Part shown: one piece after another, positions 1-8,051 of the stretch | How the letters are laid out: the number at the start of each line of letters is the position of its first letter | How positions within the stretch are numbered: position 1 is the stretch's first letter | NCBI GenBank assembly: GCA_015234045.1 | Contig: JADFWU010000012.1 | Location: forward strand, 72,800 to 80,850 | DNA: 8,051 nucleotides | Reading direction: 5' to 3' | Source of the DNA: Magnetococcales bacterium | GTDB lineage: Bacteria; Pseudomonadota; Magnetococcia; Magnetococcales; JADFWU01 | Position numbers and translations under genes: made by a program | The notes under the pieces: model-generated | What the model was told of the DNA's origin: nothing | Databases searched by the model: none | What the model saw: only the letters and a program-made list of their open reading frames with translations

Positions 1-75
1 ACCCGCGCCATCCACATCATCTTCACTGATACCAGTCAGTGTTACGCTGTAACCATCGGCAACAGGTTGATCATT
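1..75 (-). repeat. Start of Trp-rich domain 4 (B class), cut by the window edge
   Basis: Residues 2659-2683, only the entry: NDQPVADGYSVTLTGISE, then DDVDGAG. All 25 residues, and all 75 bases, equal the start of domain 2, so this is a B-class domain opening. The array continues beyond position 1. Confidence 0.82.
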
Positions 76-84
76 GACCGAAGC
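1..84 (-). repeat. Exact 84-base direct repeat, copy 1
   Basis: Bases 1-84 equal bases 874-957 without a mismatch; the first difference is at 85 versus 958 (A versus G). It may extend past the window edge. The offset of 873 bases is exactly 291 codons, or two Trp-rich domains. Beyond base 84 the two copies are only partly similar. Confidence 0.95.
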
Positions 85-3000
85 AATCTCAAGGCTGACG
101 GTCTGCGTATCCGTACTGAACGCCGAACTGTCACCAACCGTGCTGGCATCCAGATAATCACCGGCAACACCATCGGTTTGATCCCAGGCCCGATAGGTAA
201 AGCTGGCACTGTCTCCATTATCACCATCCGGCTGATAGCGCAGATAGCTCTGGTCATCCAGCACCAAGGCGTTGTCTTCGCTCACCGATCCGACATCACT
301 CCAAGTAACACCATAATCGGTGGAGTACTGCCACACACCCGCACTGCCTGAACCATCATCAACCGCTGTAATAGCCATACCAACGGTGTCATAGTCCACA
401 TCCCAGGCATCGGAACCCAGAATCTCACTGACCATATTGCCGTACAGATCAACATCATCTTCGGTAATGCTGGTCCAGGACCAATCATAGGCGCTCAGTG
501 TTGGTGCATCATTGACATCAGACACATCCAGCGTAGCGGTTACCGTGTCATCGGAGAATGCAGAGGTGCTATCCAGTGTGGAGACATCCACCCAGGAATT
601 ACTGCTTTCACTGCTTTGATCCCAGATACGATACTCAAGAAAGGCCGTACCGCCATTCTCCTCATCCGGTTGGAAACGGATTAAATCTGTTGAAGCCAGC
701 AACAACGCACTTGTGGTGTCATAGGCTTCCAGATAGCTCCAGTTCACACCGTCATCAACGGAGTATTCCCAGTAGCCAGGATCGGTATCACCGGTATAGG
801 TCACCGCAATACCATGATCAATATCACTGCTGTCCACATCGCTGAAGCTGGGCAGAAGCTCGGATACAGAGTAACCCGCGCCATCCACATCATCTTCACT
901 GATACCAGTCAGTGTTACGCTGTAACCATCGGCAACAGGTTGATCATTGACCGAAGCGATTTCAAGTTGTGCGGTCTGACTATTTTCACTGAAAGCGGAC
1001 GTTCCACCAACCGTGGTTGCATCGACAAAATCACCAACGCTTCCAGAAGTCTGATCCCAAGCCAGATAGGTCAAACTGGCAAAATCACCATTTTCACCAT
1101 CCGGCAGATAGCGCACCATACTGGTGCCATCAAGCAACAGCGCATTATCCGCTGCGACACCACTTATCTCGGCCCAACTGCTACCACTGTCCAGAGAGTA
1201 TTGCCAAAAGCCACCGCTGTCTGAACCATCATCTACTGCAATCACTGCAAGGCCGGTGCTGGCATCAGCATCCACATCTGTGGCACCAGCATCAGCTATG
1301 TAGCTGCTTAGATCGTCATAGTAGGAGAAGTTATCTTCATCGGTGCTGGTTAACGACCATGTGGTCGAATCCATTACCGGCGCATCATTGGTATTTTCTA
1401 CCGTGACAGTAAACTCATGGGAAACAATGGCACCACTGGCATCAGTGGCTTCAATTGTGAGGGTTGCAGAACCTACCTGATCATTATCCGGCGTACCGGA
1501 GAAAACGTTTTGTGTTGCATCAAAGCTTAACCAACTGGAGAACGGATTGTCCGTCACTGACAGCGTATAACCATCCGCTTCGGAGGTGCTGAAGGTATCG
1601 GATGAAACGGTGTAGTAGAGGCTATCATCTTCGGTAGCTATCACATCACCGATGGCACTATTCAAGGCCAGATCACTGTTATCATTCAGTGTTGACTGGA
1701 AGTGCAACTGAGCTTCGGTAGCATCCACCAATTCAGGTGTTTCGGTATCCAGCGCATCGCTGAGGAATGCCGTCAGCGTGGTATCACTGGCGAAGTCTTC
1801 GGCAGATTGTGTGAAATCAATGGTAACACCAGAAGCCGCTGCAATGACTTCATCAGTGAGGGTAATACCGTTGCTGGCATCACCATCACTATCCAATGTT
1901 TGCAAAAACCGGATGATATTGGTGACTTGATCATTTTCAACACTATCCGCACCGTCAACCATATCCAATGGTGTGACCACACCCGCACCTGTGGCCGTAC
2001 CGATGACAATATCTCCGATGGAGAAGGTCACCGTCTCGCCGGGCGCATATTGGAAGTTACCTTCAGAGTCCGTCGTTCCTGAGAACGTTGCAGTGCTGAA
2101 GGTGATATTGCTCACCGCAGCATCTTCAAAGACACCTTCACCATTGACGGTAAGTGAAATATCTTGAGAAGCAGACAGATCATCGGCATCCGTGACAGTG
2201 ACGGTAATCACATAATCAGCAACTTCATCATTGGTGGCTGTATTGGTGAATGTCAGTGTTGAAGCATCAAAGCTCAACCAATCCGGCATGGCAGCACTAC
2301 CATCCACCGTCACCGAAACAGTGAGACCATCAGTGAGGCTTTCACCATCAATATCACTGAATGCGGTGGAATCCAGAGTGAATGACTCACCCGAGCCCGC
2401 CAAAATGGTGTAATCAACAAGCAGAGTTGCATCAATCTCAGGCGCATCATTCACCGCAGAGACTGACAGACTTAAGCCATAATCTGAATCGCTGAAGCTT
2501 TCACCATCAGAGACTTTGAACCGGAAGCTGGTATCACCATTGAAATCGGCATCCGGCGTAACGGAGAGCAGGCTGATATCAGCCGCGTCAATATTTTCAT
2601 AGCGTACCACCTCAGAGCCATTCAACCAGAGGTTGACATCCTCGGAGATTTCGGTAATCCGAATGGCAGACAATTCATCTCCATCGGGATCGCTGAAGGC
2701 AAAGTCCGTAGCACTAAGCGTATAGCTGCTGTCCTCATCAATGGTGATGATGTCACTATCAGCACCAACCGGCACTTCATTGACATCAACCAACGCAATA
2801 GAGAGGGCCTGAGTGTAGGTTAATCCTTGCGCATCGGTTGCCGTGATATCAACGGAGAGGCTGTCTGTGCTTTCATAGTCCAGACCCGTTCCAGCGTTGA
2901 TCATCAACTCATCCGCACTGTTAATGCTGAACAGAGCGCTGTCCGCACCACCGGTTATGCTGAAACCATGGCTATCACCGGAATCTGGATCTGTTGCAGA

Positions 3001-6000
3001 GAGAGCACCCAGGTTAACGGCATCACTGTCTGCCGAATTTTCGTCAACTGACATCTGATCTACCGTGATGGCAGTCGGTGCTTCATTGATATCTTCCACG
3101 GACAGAGTAAACACCGTAGAAGCCTGCTCACCACCTTGATCAGTGGCAGTAACCTTGATGGTCAGATCACCAACATCCGTACTGGCAGGCAGACCGGAGA
3201 AAATACCGGTGCTCTGTTCAAAACTGAGCCATTCCGGCAGTGCACCATCAGCGTCTGAAAGATTATCAACCGTATAGGAGAGAACATCACCGCTGTCCAG
3301 ATCCGCATCGTAGAACGCATCGGTAGCAATGGTGAAATCAAACTGAGTATTTTCATAGGCGGTCTGATCATCGATACCAAGATCAACAGACGGGCTGTTA
3401 TTTTCCAAAGTAACCGACAGATCCAAGTAGGTCACCGCCGTAGCACCACTCTCATCTTCAGCAGTGATTTCAATGGTGTAATCACCTTCCGTACCGTCTG
3501 CGGCTTTGACAATAAACGCACCGGCTGCTTGTTGATAATTAATCCAGCCAGGCAGATCAGTGGTAGTCGTACCATCCAAAAGAGCCGCTGTGATGGTCAG
3601 GCTATCACCATGAATGGAATCCTCATCGGTAAAAAGATCGTCAGACAGCGTGATACGCTGGCTCTTACCGATATCAACCTGAATACCATCCAATACCGCA
3701 TCGGCATTGACTACAGGTGCATCGTTGACATTTTCAACGGTGACGGTAAACACCGTTGAAGCAGTGAGACCGGCAGGATCAGCGGCACTCACTTTCAGTG
3801 GAACGGAACCAACCGCATTGTTGTCAGGATTGGCAGTTAATACGCCATCGACATCATCGAACACCAACCAGTCCGGCAACACGCCATCAGCATCATCCAG
3901 ATTGGTGACCGTATACGTCAGCGTATCACTGTTTTCATCACTGAATGCTGTTGTGGGAATGGTGAACGTGTCGCTCTCATCTTCAAGAACCGTCCAGTCT
4001 TCCAGTCCTTGATTCACCACAGGCGCTACATTGGATTCTGCAACCGTAAGTTGGAAGGCTGTTTGTGCCCATTCACCCTGCTCATCTGTGGCAGTGATAA
4101 TGATGGTGTACGTACCTGCATCAGCCGCCGCCGCTGTACCACTGAGGGAACCCTCTTGATCATCAAAGCTGATCCAGTCCGGCAATGAGGCATTATCATC
4201 AAGACCAGCGCTCAAAGTCAGGCTATCGCCATAATTCAGGTCAGCATCGCTAAACAACGCATCCGGCAAGATGATATCAAGGCTACCACCAATATCCAGA
4301 CTGGTATTATCAATAGAAACATCAGTATTGAGAACCGGTGCATCGTTGATGTTATCAACGGTCAAAGTCACAATCTGAGAAACACTCAGACCACCAGAAC
4401 CAACAGCGGAAATCTTAAGGGCAATATCACCGATATCATCATCACCGGGCGTACCGCTAAACACACCACTGGTCGTATCAAAGCTCAACCATTCCGGTAA
4501 CGCACCATCCGTTGCGGAAAGGTTTTCTACCGCATAACTCAGCGCCTGATCATCACCCGAAACAAATGCAGCATCTGGAATGGAATAGTCCAGGCTTACA
4601 TTCTCATCCACAGTGATCGCACTGAGTGTGCTACCAACTTCCGGCCCTTGATCAGGATCAACCACATCCAGCGTGAAACTTCGCTGCACAGATTCACCAT
4701 CATCATCCGTGGCAGTGACGCGCAGATCATAGGAACCTTCATCAGCTGCGGCTGGCAGACCATATAGCGTGTTGGCAACCGCATCAAAGCTCAACCAATC
4801 CGGCAGAGTGTCACTGCTTTCCGAACGCACAGACAGGGTCAAATTGTCACCATGAATCAGATCATCATCAGAGAACAGATCATCCGACAGGGTCAGTTCG
4901 TAGCCCTCGTTAATATCTGCACTCTGATCATCCAGAGTCACTTCGCTATTTACGGTAGGTGCATCGTTGACATTGACAACAGTGAGCGTAAACACCGTGG
5001 AGGCCGATTCACCATCACCATCGGTGGCGGTTACTTTGAGTGTAATATCACCGACATCCGCATTAACTGGATCACCACTGAATGTACCTGTTTCACCGTC
5101 GAAACTGAGCCACTCAGGCAAACCTTCGGCACTGCCCAAACGGGCTATGTCATAAGTCAGCACATCATTTTCATCCGCATCGGAAAACGCACCGGATGGA
5201 ATGGTGAATTCAAGGGTTTCACCTTCATTCACTGATTGGGCTGAAATACCACTGCCCACTTCAGGCGCGTTATTGACGGCTGTGACGGTTAAATCAAAGT
5301 TTTCAGACGCTGTTGAACCGGTCTCATCAGTGACCGTGACCTTAATCTCCAACACACCATCTTCGGTGGGTGTACCGCTGAAGGTTTGTGAATCATCATC
5401 AAAGCTCAACCAATCGGGCAACGCAGCACCACTGGTCAGTGTGGCACTGTAACTAAGTTGATCATCGACATCATCATCGGTAAACAGATCACTTGGCAGT
5501 GACAACTCCATGCTCTGATCAACAAACACCTCGGCATCATCCATAGTGCCGATTTTTTCTGGTGCATCGTTGACATTCTCAACACTCAGGTCGAGTACTT
5601 CTGATACCGATTCACCATAGGGATCAGTAGCGGTAATACGGATCGCATACGCACCAACCGCATCATTATCCGGCGTTCCACTGAAAGTCTGCGAGGCACT
5701 ATCAAAGCTTAACCAATCTGGCAAACCGGAACCAAGATCCAAATCCGTAGCAGTCAGCGTCAGGTTGTCTTCATCAGCATCTGAGAAGAGATCTGTCGGC
5801 AAGGTCAGGGTAAACAGCGTGTCTTCAGTCGCCGATCCATCGGGCATTTCACCACTGAATATTGGGGCGGTATTAAAGGCCGCGACATCAAGACTCCAAA
5901 GCGCACTGGCTGATTCACCGGATTCATCTGTGGCAGTCACAGTGATATCAAGCGTACCGATATCCGCTGCGGCAGGTGTACCACTGAAGCTCAAACTGCC

Positions 6001-8051
6001 AGTATCAAATACCAACCAATCCGGCAAGTCAGACCCATCAACCAACAACGCTTCATACGTGAGACTGGCATCGGCATCGGCATCGGTGAACAGATCGGTA
6101 TCCAGCTTTAATGAAAAACCCTCGGCTTCAATAGCCGTCTGATCTTCAATCGTACCAATCAACTCCGGCGCGTCATTGACGTTATCAACAGTCAGTGTGA
6201 ACACCGTGGAAGCGCTTTTGCCATCATTATCGGTGGCAGTTACCTTCAAGGTCCACTCACCCACCTGATCATTATCAGGCCGACCGGTCAGTGTTTGTGC
6301 GTTGCTATCAAAGCTCAACCAATCGGGCAAATCTCCGCTTTGAATCTCTACCAAATCGTAGGAAAGCGCATCACCATTATCCAAATCGGCATCATCAAAG
6401 GCATCGCTGTTGAGGCTGAACAGCAACAAATCACCTTCGGAAACGCTCTGATCCTGAATGCCTGCATCCACAAATGGTTTGTGATTTACCGCTGAGACTG
6501 AAATCTCAAATACCTGAGAAGCACTCAGGCCATCATTATCCGTGGCAGTCACACGGATTTGATACTCATCAGCACTTTCGGTATCACCACTGAATCTGCG
6601 TGTAGAGGGATCAAATGAGAGCCAGTCAGGCAGATCATCCCCATTGACCAACGCAGCACTATAAGTGAGCGTGTCACCGATATCGCTATCAACAAAAGCC
6701 GCAGAACTGACCTTGAAGGAGAGGCTATCGCCCTGCTCCAGTTGGTAGTCTTCAATGTCCGTGCCTTTGACAGGTGCGTCATTGACATTATCAATGGTAA
6801 GCGTAAACACCTGAGAAGCGGTTTTGCCTTGCTGATCAGTTACCGTAATCTTGATGGCAAGGGTGCCGACATCACCATTATCCGGCGTACCACTGAACGT
6901 CTGAGAAGTGGCATCAAAATCCAACCAATCCGGCAAATCACTATTGGAACCGGTCAGATTTTTGGCTGACCAGCTCAACACATCACCACTGTCCAAATCA
7001 GGATCAGAGAAGAGATCATCAGACAAAGAGAAGGTAAACAGGCTGTCTTCTGAAGCGGTCTGATCCTGCACAGCGTTGTTAACGCTTGGTTTGGTATTGG
7101 TTTCAATGACTGAGAGTTCGAACACATCAGAAGCGGTATCGCCAGACGCATCTGTGGCGGTTACACGGACATAGAGCGTATCCACATCACCACTATCCGG
7201 GCTACCACGAAACGCGCGCGTATCCGCATCAAACTCAAGCCAGCTTGGCAAATCACTGCCATCTGCAAGGGTTGCGGAAAGTGTCAGCGTGTCATTGCTA
7301 TCTTCATCAGTGAACAGATCGCTACTGAATTCGAACTCAAAGTCTTCACCAACACCTGCAACCTGATCATCCAGACTCTCTTGCAATGTCGGCGCATCGT
7401 TGACATTTTCAACCGTCAACGTAAACACCTCGGCAATGCTCTCACCACGTTCATCAGTAGCGGTTACTTTCAGTGAAATATCACCAACATCGGCATTATC
7501 AGGAGAACCACTGAACGTGCGTGAAGCCGCATCAAAACTCAACCAATCAGGCAGTGTTCCATCCGCACTGGACAGATCATCAACCGTATAGGTCAATGAA
7601 TCCTTACCAGCACTCACATCGGTATCAGAAAAGGCATCTGCGCCGAATGTGAAACTGAATTGGGCATCTTCCAACGCTGTTTGAGCATCAATACCCGTGC
7701 CGATTGTCGGTGCGTCATTCTCATCAATAACTGAGAGTTTGAAGATATCAGAGACACTCTTACCTGATTCATCTTCCGCAGTAATACGGATACGAATATC
7801 TGCCACATCACTCAGAGCAGGATCGCCGATAAATTCACCGGTACCCTCATCAAAAGAGAGCCAGTCCGGCAGGTCGGAACCATCACTGAGCACCGCCGAT
7901 AGCGTCAGGCTGTCATCCAGATCAACATCATCAAACATGCCGTCATCAAGGCTGAGTGAGAATGTTTCACCAACAGTGGCTTCCTGATCATCCAGAGGTG
8001 CTTCAAGGGTTGGTGTATCATTGGTATTGCTCACCACCAATGTGAAGAGCA
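1..8051 (-). CDS. Giant cadherin-like/CADG repeat surface protein, internal fragment open at both ends
   Basis: The minus strand is open in one frame over the full window: 2683 whole codons, no stop, no frameshift. It is almost wholly repeats: sixteen CADG (putative Ig) domains, a cadherin domain, a tandem-95-like cadherin domain, a CADG domain, a module with NIIRFLQ, a CADG domain, then Trp-rich domains of about 146 residues. Eighteen CADG domains each keep one Trp in an LPDW-like motif. By hand count there are about 403 Asp, 138 Glu, 23 Lys, 26 Arg and no Cys, as expected for a secreted calcium-loaded beta-sandwich rod. Known relatives are giant bacterial adhesins and biofilm proteins, annotated as putative Ig, cadherin-like or tandem-95 repeat proteins. 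Signal, anchor and secretion parts are outside the window, so adhesion is inferred from architecture. No start can be chosen: the dozen internal Met codons lie inside repeats without upstream gene structure. Confidence 0.97.
76..513 (-). repeat. Trp-rich domain 3 (A class)
   Basis: Residues 2513-2658, 146 residues. NDAP, SITEDDVDLYGN, DVDYDTVGMAITAVDDGSG, GVWQYSTDYGVTW (Trp2573, Trp2583), NALVLDDQSYLRYQPDG, YRAWDQTDGVAGDY (Trp2622), DASTVGDSAF, LEIASV. It resembles domain 1 closely in AVDDGS, PDGxNGD, the AWDQT region and the shared LEIASVNDQPV ending. Confidence 0.84.
514..948 (-). repeat. Trp-rich domain 2 (B class)
   Basis: Residues 2368-2512, 145 residues. Enters NDQPV, then TLTGISEDDVDGAG, DVDSSDIDHG, PGYWEYSVDDGVNW (Trp2427, Trp2437), SALLLASTDLIRFQPDE, YRIWDQSSE (Trp2476) and STSAFSDDTV. 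The entry segment is encoded by one copy of the exact 84-base repeat. It lacks the AVDDGS stretch of domains 1 and 3. Confidence 0.84.
874..957 (-). repeat. Exact 84-base direct repeat, copy 2
   Basis: Second copy, covering the junction of Trp-rich domains 1 and 2 (ASVNDQPV through DDVDGAG). On its left (bases below 874) it continues GYSVSELLPSF, so copy 1 may continue the same way outside the window. Confidence 0.95.
949..1389 (-). repeat. Trp-rich domain 1 (A class)
   Basis: Residues 2221-2367, 147 residues. Order: NDAP, TSTDEDNF, an acidic DVDADAS turn, AVIAVDDGSDSGGFWQYS (Trp2282), GSSWAEI (Trp2292), DNALLLDGTSMVRYLPDG, then LAWDQTSGSVGDF (Trp2331) and FSENSQTAQLE. This pattern recurs in large bacterial repeat proteins next to cadherin-like domains. 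I know no assigned function; an all-beta extracellular fold is likely. It matches domain 3 better than domain 2. Confidence 0.82.
1390..1719 (-). repeat. CADG domain 18, last of its family in the window
   Basis: Residues about 2111-2220. Contains ATEDDSLYYTVSSDTFST, NPFSSWLSFDATQNVFSGTPDNDQVG around Trp2173, IEATDASG and FTVTVENTNDAP. The LPD before Trp is replaced by FSS, while the rest is near consensus. It follows the NIIRFLQ module; the exact joint, near TEAQLHFQSTLNDNSD, is uncertain. Confidence 0.83.
1720..2142 (-). other. Non-cadherin module with NIIRFLQ and a DSDGD loop
   Basis: Residues about 1970-2110. Visible order: VFEDAAVSN, SGTTDSEGNFQYAPGE, TFSIGDIVIGTATG, VTPLDMV, NIIRFLQ at 2044-2050, LDSDGDASNGIT at 2052-2063, then a more helical-looking stretch, LTDEVIAAASG and a FASDTTLTAFLSDAL segment. 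From memory, this SGxTDxxGxF / GExVxFxIGD / TPLDxV / RFLQxLDxDGDxxNGI series recurs in secreted proteins and lipoproteins of gammaproteobacteria, often alone at the mature N-terminus. I know no assigned function. The DxDGDxxN loop could bind calcium (inference). It sits between two CADG domains as an insert in the rod. Confidence 0.72.
2143..2451 (-). repeat. Isolated CADG domain 17, divergent
   Basis: Residues about 1867-1969. Entry NDAPEID, SFTLDSTAFSDIDGE, then AMPDWLSFD around Trp1924, TFTNTATNDEV in place of FSGTPDN, and ITVTVTDADD. Protein divergence is clear, yet bases 2264-2288 match domain 11 exactly over 25 bases. The end is placed where NGEGVFEDAAVSN begins the next module, and is approximate. 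Confidence 0.82.
2264..2288 (-). repeat. 25-base identity with 4781-4805
   Basis: Identical bases encode the PDWLSFDA-like core of CADG domains 17 and 11, which lie about 2.5 kb apart and differ widely outside this core. Confidence 0.85.
2452..2781 (-). other. Cadherin-like domain of tandem-95 type
   Basis: Residues 1757-1866. Starts with NEVP, then ITIDEDSSYTLSATDFAFSD, DPDGDELSAIRI, a LWLNGSEV segment, SVTPDADFNGDTSFRF, and VSDGESFSDS before AVNDAP. The EDS...F.D.DGD...L.ITP..DFNG...F...V.DG order is that of the cadherin-like/tandem-95 family of large bacterial surface proteins. It carries the last lysine of the visible protein (residue 1845). Confidence 0.85.
2782..3087 (-). other. Classical cadherin-type domain
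   Basis: Residues 1655-1756. It has no LPDW motif but the calcium signatures of true cadherin repeats: DEN at 1669-1671, SATDPDSGDSHG, FSINSADELMINAGTGLDYE with DYE at 1724-1726, ITATDAQG with Asp1739, and DVNEVP at 1755-1760 closing the domain. In this family such residues bind Ca2+ at domain junctions and stiffen the rod. It is the only copy in the window and marks the change from the uniform CADG array to the mixed distal part. Confidence 0.88.
3088..3402 (-). repeat. CADG domain 16 (B class)
   Basis: Residues 1550-1654, last copy of the long array. Has YDADLDSGD, YTVDNLSDADGALPEW ending at Trp1607, FSGLPASTDVG, IKVTATDQGG and VFTLSVEDINEAP, which leads directly into the classical cadherin domain. 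Confidence 0.91.
3403..3726 (-). repeat. CADG domain 15 (A class, most degenerate)
   Basis: Residues 1442-1549, 108 residues, the longest copy. The core is altered to LPGWINYQQ around Trp1502, followed by FIVKAADGTEG in place of FSGTPDN. The entry NDAP, the DDLFTDEDSIHGD turn and ITAEDESG remain. Extra Thr residues (TTTT) precede the Trp motif. Confidence 0.86.
3727..4032 (-). repeat. CADG domain 14 (B class, divergent)
   Basis: Residues 1340-1441. Enters NVAP, has YTVTNLDDADGVLPDW ending at Trp1394, then VFDDVDGVLTANPDNNAVG, so the SG of FSGTP is replaced. LKVSAADPAG takes the place of VTATD. Exit VFTVTVENVNDAP is typical for the B class. Confidence 0.88.
4033..4347 (-). repeat. CADG domain 13 (A class)
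   Basis: Residues 1235-1339. Has ALFSDADLNYGDS, LPDWISFD around Trp1292, then an alanine-rich SGTAAAADAG turn and IIITATDEQG. Exit through AESNVAP. Confidence 0.89.
4348..4653 (-). repeat. CADG domain 12 (B class)
   Basis: Residues 1133-1234. Enters DQGP, the boundary least like NDAP. Has YAVENLSATDGALPEW ending at Trp1187, FSGTPGDDDIG, and LKISAVGSGG, where the normal TATDxxG calcium-type loop has lost its Asp. Exit through VTLTVDNINDAP. Confidence 0.9.
4654..4968 (-). repeat. CADG domain 11 (A class)
   Basis: Residues 1028-1132. Has DDLFSDDDLIHGDN, LPDWLSFD around Trp1085, then LYGLPAAADEG in place of FSGTPDN, and LRVTATDDDG. Bases 4781-4805 over the Trp motif are identical to 2264-2288 in the distant domain 17. 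Exit through DPDQGP. Confidence 0.9.
4781..4805 (-). repeat. 25-base identity with 2264-2288
   Basis: Partner of the copy in domain 17. It covers the Trp motif of CADG domain 11. Confidence 0.85.
4969..5274 (-). repeat. CADG domain 10 (B class)
   Basis: Residues 926-1027. Enters NNAP, has SDADENDVLTYD, GLPEWLSFD around Trp980, FSGDPVNADVG, LKVTATDGDG and VFTLTVVNVNDAP. Glu replaces Asp before the Trp, as also in domains 12 and 16, all of B class. Confidence 0.91.
5275..5571 (-). repeat. CADG domain 9 (A class)
   Basis: Residues 827-925, 99 residues. Has DLFTDDDVDD, a run of six Asp within eight residues, then LPDWLSFDDDSQTFSGTP around Trp880. A shortened TEDGVLEIK turn replaces DNxDVG. Exit through AVNNAP. 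Confidence 0.91.
5398..5421 (-). repeat. 24-base identity with 6307-6330
   Basis: Covers LPDWLSFD of CADG domain 9. The same 24 bases encode that core in domain 6. Confidence 0.85.
5572..5874 (-). repeat. CADG domain 8 (B class)
   Basis: Residues 726-826. Enters NTAP, has DLFSDADEDN, LPDWLSFD around Trp779, FSGTPDNDAVG, IRITATDPYG and VLDLSVENVNDAP. Arg stands where other B copies have Lys in the LKV strand. Confidence 0.92.
5875..6177 (-). repeat. CADG domain 7 (A class)
   Basis: Residues 625-725. Has DLFTDADADASL, VDGSDLPDWLVFD around Trp678, FSGTPAAADIG and ITVTATDESG. The DADADA stretch is encoded by three perfect hexanucleotide copies at 6067-6084. Exit through AFNTAP. Confidence 0.91.
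6067..6084 (-). repeat. Perfect hexanucleotide tandem, three GGCATC copies on the plus strand
   Basis: Encodes DADADA in the acidic turn of CADG domain 7. Slippage by whole units would add or remove an Asp-Ala pair without breaking the frame. Confidence 0.9.
6178..6486 (-). repeat. CADG domain 6 (B class)
   Basis: Residues 522-624. Enters NHKP, has DAFDDADLDNGD, LPDWLSFD around Trp577, then TLTGRPDNDQVG in place of FSGTPDN. LKVTATDNDG and VFTLTVDNVNDAP follow. Bases 6307-6330 over the Trp motif are identical to 5398-5421 in domain 9. Confidence 0.91.
6307..6330 (-). repeat. 24-base identity with 5398-5421
   Basis: Covers LPDWLSFD of CADG domain 6, paired with domain 9. Confidence 0.85.
6487..6783 (-). 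repeat. CADG domain 5 (A class)
   Basis: Residues 423-521; at 99 residues one of the two shortest copies. After LPDWLSFD (Trp476) the turn is shortened to SGDTESADEY, lacking the DNxDVG stretch, then IRVTATDNDG. The exit AVNHKP is unlike NDAP. Confidence 0.9.
6784..7098 (-). repeat. CADG domain 4 (B class)
   Basis: Residues 318-422. It enters with NTKP instead of NDAP. It is otherwise close to consensus: DDLFSDPDLDSGD, LPDWLDFD around Trp375, FSGTPDNGDVG, IKITVTDQQG, and exit VFTLTIDNVNDAP. An extra Trp lies in the LSWSAK strand. Confidence 0.92.
7099..7401 (-). repeat. CADG domain 3 (A class)
   Basis: Residues 217-317. It begins NDAPTLQ, has DLFTDEDSND as its acidic turn and LPSWLEFD around Trp270, so Ser replaces the usual Asp before the Trp. 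The FRGSPDSGDVD and VRVTATDASG segments follow. It ends FELSVIETN, handing over to a non-NDAP entry. Confidence 0.9.
7402..7719 (-). repeat. CADG domain 2 (B class)
   Basis: Residues 111-216. Typical B features: YTVDDLSSADGTLPDW with Trp169, SGSPDNADVG, LKVTATDERG, and exit through VFTLTVENVNDAP. At 106 residues it is among the longer copies, owing to extra residues in the DVSAGKDS acidic turn. Confidence 0.9.
7720..8022 (-). repeat. CADG domain 1 (A class)
   Basis: Residues 10-110, first complete domain in the window; residues 1-9 are the tail of another domain upstream. It has SDGSDLPDWLSFDEG around Trp63 and ITAEDESGKSVSD near the end. FIGDPALSD replaces the usual FSGTPDN. It leaves through SVIDENDAP, whose ending resembles that of domain 3 (SVIETN). 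Confidence 0.88.

Follow-up and report, generated by a model that had tools for sequence, protein, structure and literature searches.

The rods of bacterial RTX proteins are believed to owe their stiffness to calcium at each joint: In the four solved RTX extender structures, the linkers hold calcium, and this is taken to stiffen the rod (PMC7493085). For the cadherins, the order of the calcium-binding motifs and the domain that contributes each of them have been described (PMC5120219, PMC8691648): the first domain supplies XEX and D(R/Y)E, DxNDN lies in the linker, and the second domain adds DxD and XDX (PMC5120219). Cadherin linkers that are free of calcium bend (PMC5120219, PMC8427231). Moreover, in some cadherins linkers with two ions or fewer are flexible, and the two-ion linker of PCDH24 stays stiff (PMC8691648). 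The protein family described here, from bacteria of the order Magnetococcales, departs from the idea of a calcium-stiffened joint at each position, and it does so for dozens of joints running: its CADG domains alternate between two classes, and the putative calcium ligands are complete at one kind of joint and largely lost at the other. A limited literature search found no prior reports of bacterial CADG doublets or of alternating calcium linkers in adhesins, and none of giant genes in Magnetococcus.

The window, i. e. the whole stretch of 8,051 nt that was analysed, is the end of contig C21 in a draft genome of 3.65 Mb, and a single open frame spans it entirely. The contig stops at base 8051, and the CADG array is incomplete at this end, where the tail of a B-type domain (FTLVVSNTNDTP) precedes the first complete domain, D01. 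At the other end, a gap of 100 N adjoins base 1; past this gap, the frame runs for about 5,100 more residues to a stop at C21:57304, and the protein must therefore have at least about 7,800 residues. A profile search identified 18 stretches of the window that match PF05345 above the curated cut-off, with a whole-protein E of 1e-269. Cutting at the linker proline gave 16 CADG (PF05345) domains of 99-108 aa between positions 3079 and 8013 (Table 1). The C-terminal 1,564 residues, past the gap, include RTX nonapeptide repeats as well as LamG-type domains and Big_9/cadherin-like repeats, with a HemolysinCabind match within the final 200 aa, outside the window. In the relative G010, a protein of the same kind (11.7k aa) has a C-terminal end of like plan, and its N-terminus carries a FecR-like domain and a weak retention_LapA match (35.9 bits, at a curated cut-off of 50). 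The LamG-type domains and the RTX C-terminus, together with the FecR-like domain and the weak LapA-type match in G010, point to the plan of a long RTX adhesin, and according to the profile matches and the structural model the CADG array forms the tandem beta-sandwich extender typical of LapA-type proteins. On the best reading, the window encodes a segment of the extender rod in a giant surface protein of the RTX type. Past the gap, the other half of this protein (L009/L130) also contains 14 ELWxxDGT motifs; the G010 protein has none.

Table 1. Features of the open frame in the window. Positions are those of the window; A and B are the two classes of CADG domains.
Feature	Description	Position	Strand	Remarks
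Giant RTX-type surface protein	middle part	1..8049	-	open frame; N-terminal side cut by contig end; continues C-terminally past the 100-N gap
D01	class A by sequence	7711..8013	-	exit linker DENDAP, calcium-type (exception)
D02	class B	7393..7710	-	Glu14, PDN, NVND exit linker
D03	class A	7090..7392	-	exit linker ETNTKP
D04	class B	6775..7089	-	
D05	class A	6478..6774	-	exit linker AVNHKP
D06	class B	6169..6477	-	
D07	class A	5866..6168	-	exit linker AFNTAP
D08	class B	5563..5865	-	
D09	class A	5266..5562	-	exit linker AVNNAP
D10	class B	4960..5265	-	
D11	class A	4645..4959	-	exit linker DPDQGP
D12	class B	4339..4644	-	Asp29 and Asp81 lost on the N-terminal side
D13	class A	4024..4338	-	exit linker ESNVAP
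D14	class B	3718..4023	-	
D15	class A, most diverged	3394..3717	-	exit linker LENNSP
D16	class B, last of the array	3079..3393	-	exit linker DINEAP
E1-E3	145-aa domains of another family	67..1380	-	pair order (E1/E3/E5 alike; E2/E6 alike)

The sequence-only reading had proposed that odd and even domains belong to two classes in strict alternation, so that the unit of the array is a pair. For the domains themselves, this was confirmed in all 16 copies by identity at different lags, by the tree and by self-match. The mean protein identity is 38.8% at lag 1 and 46.3% at lag 2, and it continues to oscillate at lags 3 to 6 (38.7, 44.7, 40.3 and 44.3%); likewise, the odd-odd and even-even means (40.8 and 48.1%) lie above the odd-even mean (38.1%), and only four of 20,000 random 8/8 splits match the odd/even split. 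Removal of the linkers leaves the core identities at 38.9% for lag 1 and 45.9% for lag 2, which one of 10,000 random splits equals. The even copies form a tight class; the odd copies are looser (41%), with D15 the loosest. In the maximum-likelihood tree, odd and even copies are found on opposite sides of a single branch (support 90/95), and clades of adjacent even and odd copies were rejected in three of the four cases tested (p-AU 0.001-0.01), with a borderline result for D10+D11 (p-AU 0.066). The peak expected near 205 residues in a self-comparison was found, in ungapped DNA, at 621 nt, i. e. 207 aa; Tandem Repeats Finder returned nothing for the window DNA. The linker motifs had also been quoted correctly: N(V/I)NDAP enters the odd copies 3-15, whereas the even copies 4-16 are entered by NTKP, NHKP, NTAP, NNAP, DQGP, NVAP and NNSP, in this order, and the string of presence and absence of the ND linker has a permutation p of 0.0007. 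The linkers alternate strictly only from D02 on, however, as D01 is a class A domain with a calcium-type exit, and adjacent pairs measure 200-213 aa rather than the 201-213 residues that had been given.

The four columns that best separate the two classes are, as judged by alignment, cadherin-type calcium ligands: Glu14, Asn67, Asn97 and Asp100. In the window, the best class-separating columns include Glu14, which is present in all eight even copies, the Asn67 of PDN, and linker residues. We ranked 101 columns in a pooled set of 87 class A and 86 class B domains from five Magnetococcales genomes: columns 100, 97, 14 and 67 come out on top (z 12.7-18.9), and since the class parity of each array was set by the ND linker, the ranking of columns 99-100 is circular in part (by one bit per array), and that of 14, 67 and 97 is not. 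The fifth-best column is linker column 98 (z 10.4), whereas columns 29, 81 and 99 hardly differ between the classes and column 31 differs moderately. Asn99 of the linker together with Asp29, Asp31 and Asp81 of the next domain presumably corresponds to cadherin calcium site 3. In a profile alignment to human CELSR1, Glu14 is the Glu of XEX, Asp29xAsp31 is DxD, Asp81 is XDX, N99-D100 corresponds to DxND, and PxN falls near D(R/Y)E. Because XEX and D(R/Y)E are supplied by the first domain and are followed by the linker, all four lost positions belong to one and the same joint, which follows a class A domain.

This gives strong support to the earlier suggestion of two joint types along the rod, the class-defining columns being putative calcium ligands of a single joint. 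In the five genomes, B-to-A joints have on average 7.90 of eight ligand positions and A-to-B joints 4.60, and the set is complete in 73 of 81 B-to-A joints and in none of 81 A-to-B joints. B-to-A joints have E/Q14, D100, D29, D31 and D81 in all 81 cases, N99 in 79, and D/N66-67 and D/N97 in 78 each. A-to-B joints retain N99 (79/81), D29 (80/81), D31 (79/81) and D81 (80/81); E/Q14 is found in 18, D/N66-67 in 11, D/N97 in 17 and D100 in 9 of the 81. The ND of the linker covaries with E/Q14 (Fisher 8e-27) and with N67 (1e-28). In the window, each of the seven B-to-A joints has eight of eight positions, with PxN in the place of D(R/Y)E, whereas the A-to-B joints have three to six, so that the array does not carry a full set at every joint. 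D12 is the sole class B domain of the window without Asp29 and Asp81, and the D11-D12 joint has three of the eight positions.

An AlphaFold2 model of D02-D05, built from 20 in-register rows and containing no ions, has a pLDDT of 94.6 and a pTM of 0.58, and the domain orientations are not fixed by it. In this model, the CADG domains adopt a beta-sandwich of the cadherin/dystroglycan kind: it matches CELSR1 EC4-7 end-to-end over 374 residues (Z 16.8), and single domains superpose on dystroglycan with an rmsd of 2.0-2.1 A at 33% identity. Superpositions of four domains with cadherins mostly have an rmsd of 8-15 A, which means that the angles between the domains differ or are not fixed by the model.

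The same alternation was found in arrays of 17-25 domains in the relatives G010, G023 (two proteins), G006 and G013, whereas the pattern is mostly lost in G026 and kept in part in G036. By sequence, the alternation has thus persisted in at least four genera, with arrays that share about 45% identity or less with that of the window. The class signal transfers between genomes even without the calcium columns (AUC 0.61-0.99), and the two classes are therefore probably older than these genera. In a pooled tree of 212 domains the classes cluster, with 25 changes as compared to 67 by chance; with its 91 columns, this tree does not resolve one origin of the classes. A one-to-one match of the 16 domains of the window with the G010-type arrays was tried and gave no clear register between the families. 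In CADG arrays outside the Magnetococcales, 65 of 85 joints are complete (8/8) and most long arrays have Glu14 in every domain; since the joints of these outgroups are mostly complete, the alternation looks derived. One cyanobacterial array, L058 of Oscillatoria princeps RMCB-10, has five CADG domains whose joints carry 3, 8, 2 and 8 of the eight positions; it is possibly an independent alternating array outside the order.

Growth of the array by duplication of a two-domain block had been proposed as well. The tree is consistent with such a history, but the copies in the window are too diverged to show the events: At lag 2, protein identity is 46%, and the third codon positions are just 42% identical, which rules out a recent duplication inside this array. 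Growth by pairs fits the data and most simply explains why two old classes follow each other strictly. Elsewhere, pair duplication can be seen directly, both in this gene and in G023. The 145-aa domains downstream in the gene are likewise ordered in pairs and repeat with a period of 873 nt: E1, E3 and E5 are 53-60% alike, E2 and E6 50%, and cross comparisons give 32-42%. E4 at first matches E2 almost base for base, and this second copy is then cut short by the 100-N gap (window 1-1380, L009), which suggests that the assembly probably failed there in a near-identical two-domain repeat. The 25-domain arrays of G010 and G023, from one genus, are orthologous position by position (64.5% identity, best hits for 25 of 25 domains), and as read from these one-to-one arrays the rods are frozen, reflecting an old history rather than ongoing growth. 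G023 contains in addition a very recent two-domain amplification, in residues 10443-11480 of an open frame of 19,352 aa on G023:C1 (L037-L039): this array of 11 CADG domains has a DNA identity of 92% at a period of 564 nt and of 72% at 282 nt. Both of its classes have the full ligand set, and pair duplication and the alternation of joints are thus separable.

We consider it likely that the array forms a chain of calcium-stiffened two-domain segments linked by calcium-poor joints, as the predicted extender rod of an RTX-type protein. The repeating unit would be a pair of CADG domains, i. e. of dystroglycan-type cadherin-like domains. A class B domain and the linker that follows it would provide ligands for three calcium ions (the XEX-base Glu14, PxN at 66-67 in the place of D(R/Y)E, and NxND), and this set would be completed by the aspartates of DxD and XDX in the class A domain that comes next. 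In class A domains, the base Glu, PxN and the linker Asp appear to have been lost, so that the site-3 ligands alone would remain at the A-to-B joint, which should hold about one calcium ion. In the presence of calcium, the B-A segments may then be stiff two-domain rods, and the A-B joints may be looser or stiffened by other means, giving a chain with two kinds of joints, one of each per pair. The pair itself would be old, duplicated in blocks of two and then kept. Calcium binding by these residues is putative, and we infer the number of ions and the easier bending or stretching of the calcium-poor joints; this easier movement is suggested by analogy to calcium-free and partial linkers of protocadherin-15 and LI-cadherin. 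If correct, the family would be a naturally designed rod with periodic joints, and it allows the effect of calcium joints to be tested directly at the level of domains.

Two other explanations of the alternation have to be weighed against calcium-stiffened segments with calcium-poor joints between them. The two classes might differ by descent alone, as a relic of block duplication, with the calcium-poor joints simply relaxed and without function. The class signal in columns away from the joint fits such a history, and so does the pair duplication seen nearby in the gene and in the G023 array. However, it is mainly in the ligands of a single joint that the classes differ, this difference is kept at 81 of 81 B-to-A joints with an A-to-B loss that is nearly as strict in four genera, and the young G023 pairs with all their ligands indicate that duplicating pairs is not enough to generate the split; we therefore regard descent alone as improbable.

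It is also conceivable that the A-to-B joints are stiff without calcium, by proline or packed linkers, so that the rod is uniform and the alternation reflects calcium economy or a fixed bend. Such joints do have precedents: proline linkers stiffen invasins (PMC7493085), and in protocadherin-15 and Drosophila N-cadherin, linkers without calcium are packed into bends (PMC5120219). In the relatives G010, G023, G006 and G013, a proline at linker position 97 or 98 is present in 35 of 79 class A linkers and in 0 of 78 class B linkers, but the window has it in just one of its eight class A linkers, and the class A linker sequences vary widely. Stiffness without calcium thus seems rather unlikely, if less so than descent alone, and segments joined by calcium-poor linkers remain our preferred explanation.

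It is tempting to ask whether rods of this kind could explain, at the molecular level, the flagellar sheath that magnetotactic cocci assemble with calcium. Sap, a protein of this sheath, is reported by Lefevre 2010 to resemble cadherins. The genome of the window belongs to the Magnetococcales and has about a dozen flagellin genes. The relative G010 (4,719,581 bp in one contig), which we take to be probably MC-1, carries the 11.7k-aa protein of this kind, and in G018 (20 contigs, 5.0 Mb, same family), which we assume may be IT-1, no match to PF05345 was found in the genome. The window genome (G000) has 14 Flagellin_N matches, on contigs C23, C64 and others, with eight strong ones consecutive on C64; many flagellins are also found in magnetotactic cocci. 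Another large CADG-bearing frame of G010 was considered as a candidate for Sap and set aside, as it looks like a repeat protein of the filamentous-haemagglutinin type. The sheath of MO-1 is made of a glycoprotein of more than 350 kDa that is assembled by calcium (PMC7175107), and Sap has been reported in MO-1 and MC-1 and is absent from IT-1, which has no sheath (PMC5088516). Sap and the protein of the window would both be very large calcium-dependent surface proteins of the same order (PMC7175107, PMC5088516), likened by description and not by sequence. The protein of the window might be the Sap of its genome, the calcium-assembled sheath protein of the flagellar bundle, with the alternating joints serving assembly. 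This would be compatible with calcium-stiffened segments, but it is a tentative proposal: the names of G010 and G018 are inferred, and RTX giants ordinarily serve in adhesion or biofilm formation. Even more speculative, and in our view improbable, is the idea that periodic stiffness at every second joint lets the cadherin-like giants of magnetotactic cocci assemble with calcium into a helical sheath around the flagellar bundle. The link to Sap is a plausible association, not an identification.

Compared to known systems, the domains of the array are members of CADG/He_PIG PF05345, in their profile match and in their dystroglycan fold at 33% identity; in other tandem CADG arrays, however, most joints are complete in their ligands, whereas the array in the window alternates. 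A periodicity of higher order than the single domain is known from the super-repeats of titin, but these have periods of 7 and 11 Ig/FN3 domains and are not set by calcium joints. With LapA, MpIBP, MhLap, AhLap and SiiE, the protein shares giant size, a tandem beta-sandwich extender, LamG-type lectin domains and a C-terminal RTX region, and the N-terminus of the relative G010, with its FecR-like domain and its retention_LapA match below the cut-off, may resemble that of long RTX adhesins. In contrast to the solved RTX extenders, the protein of the window lacks most ligands at every second joint. A parallel to this loss is found in protocadherin-15, LI-cadherin and Drosophila N-cadherin: XEX, D(R/Y)E and DxND ligands are likewise lost at particular joints, and such joints bend (PMC5120219, PMC8427231). 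In these cadherins, however, the loss is confined to a single joint or to a few, at set positions, whereas in the array described here it recurs at every second joint.
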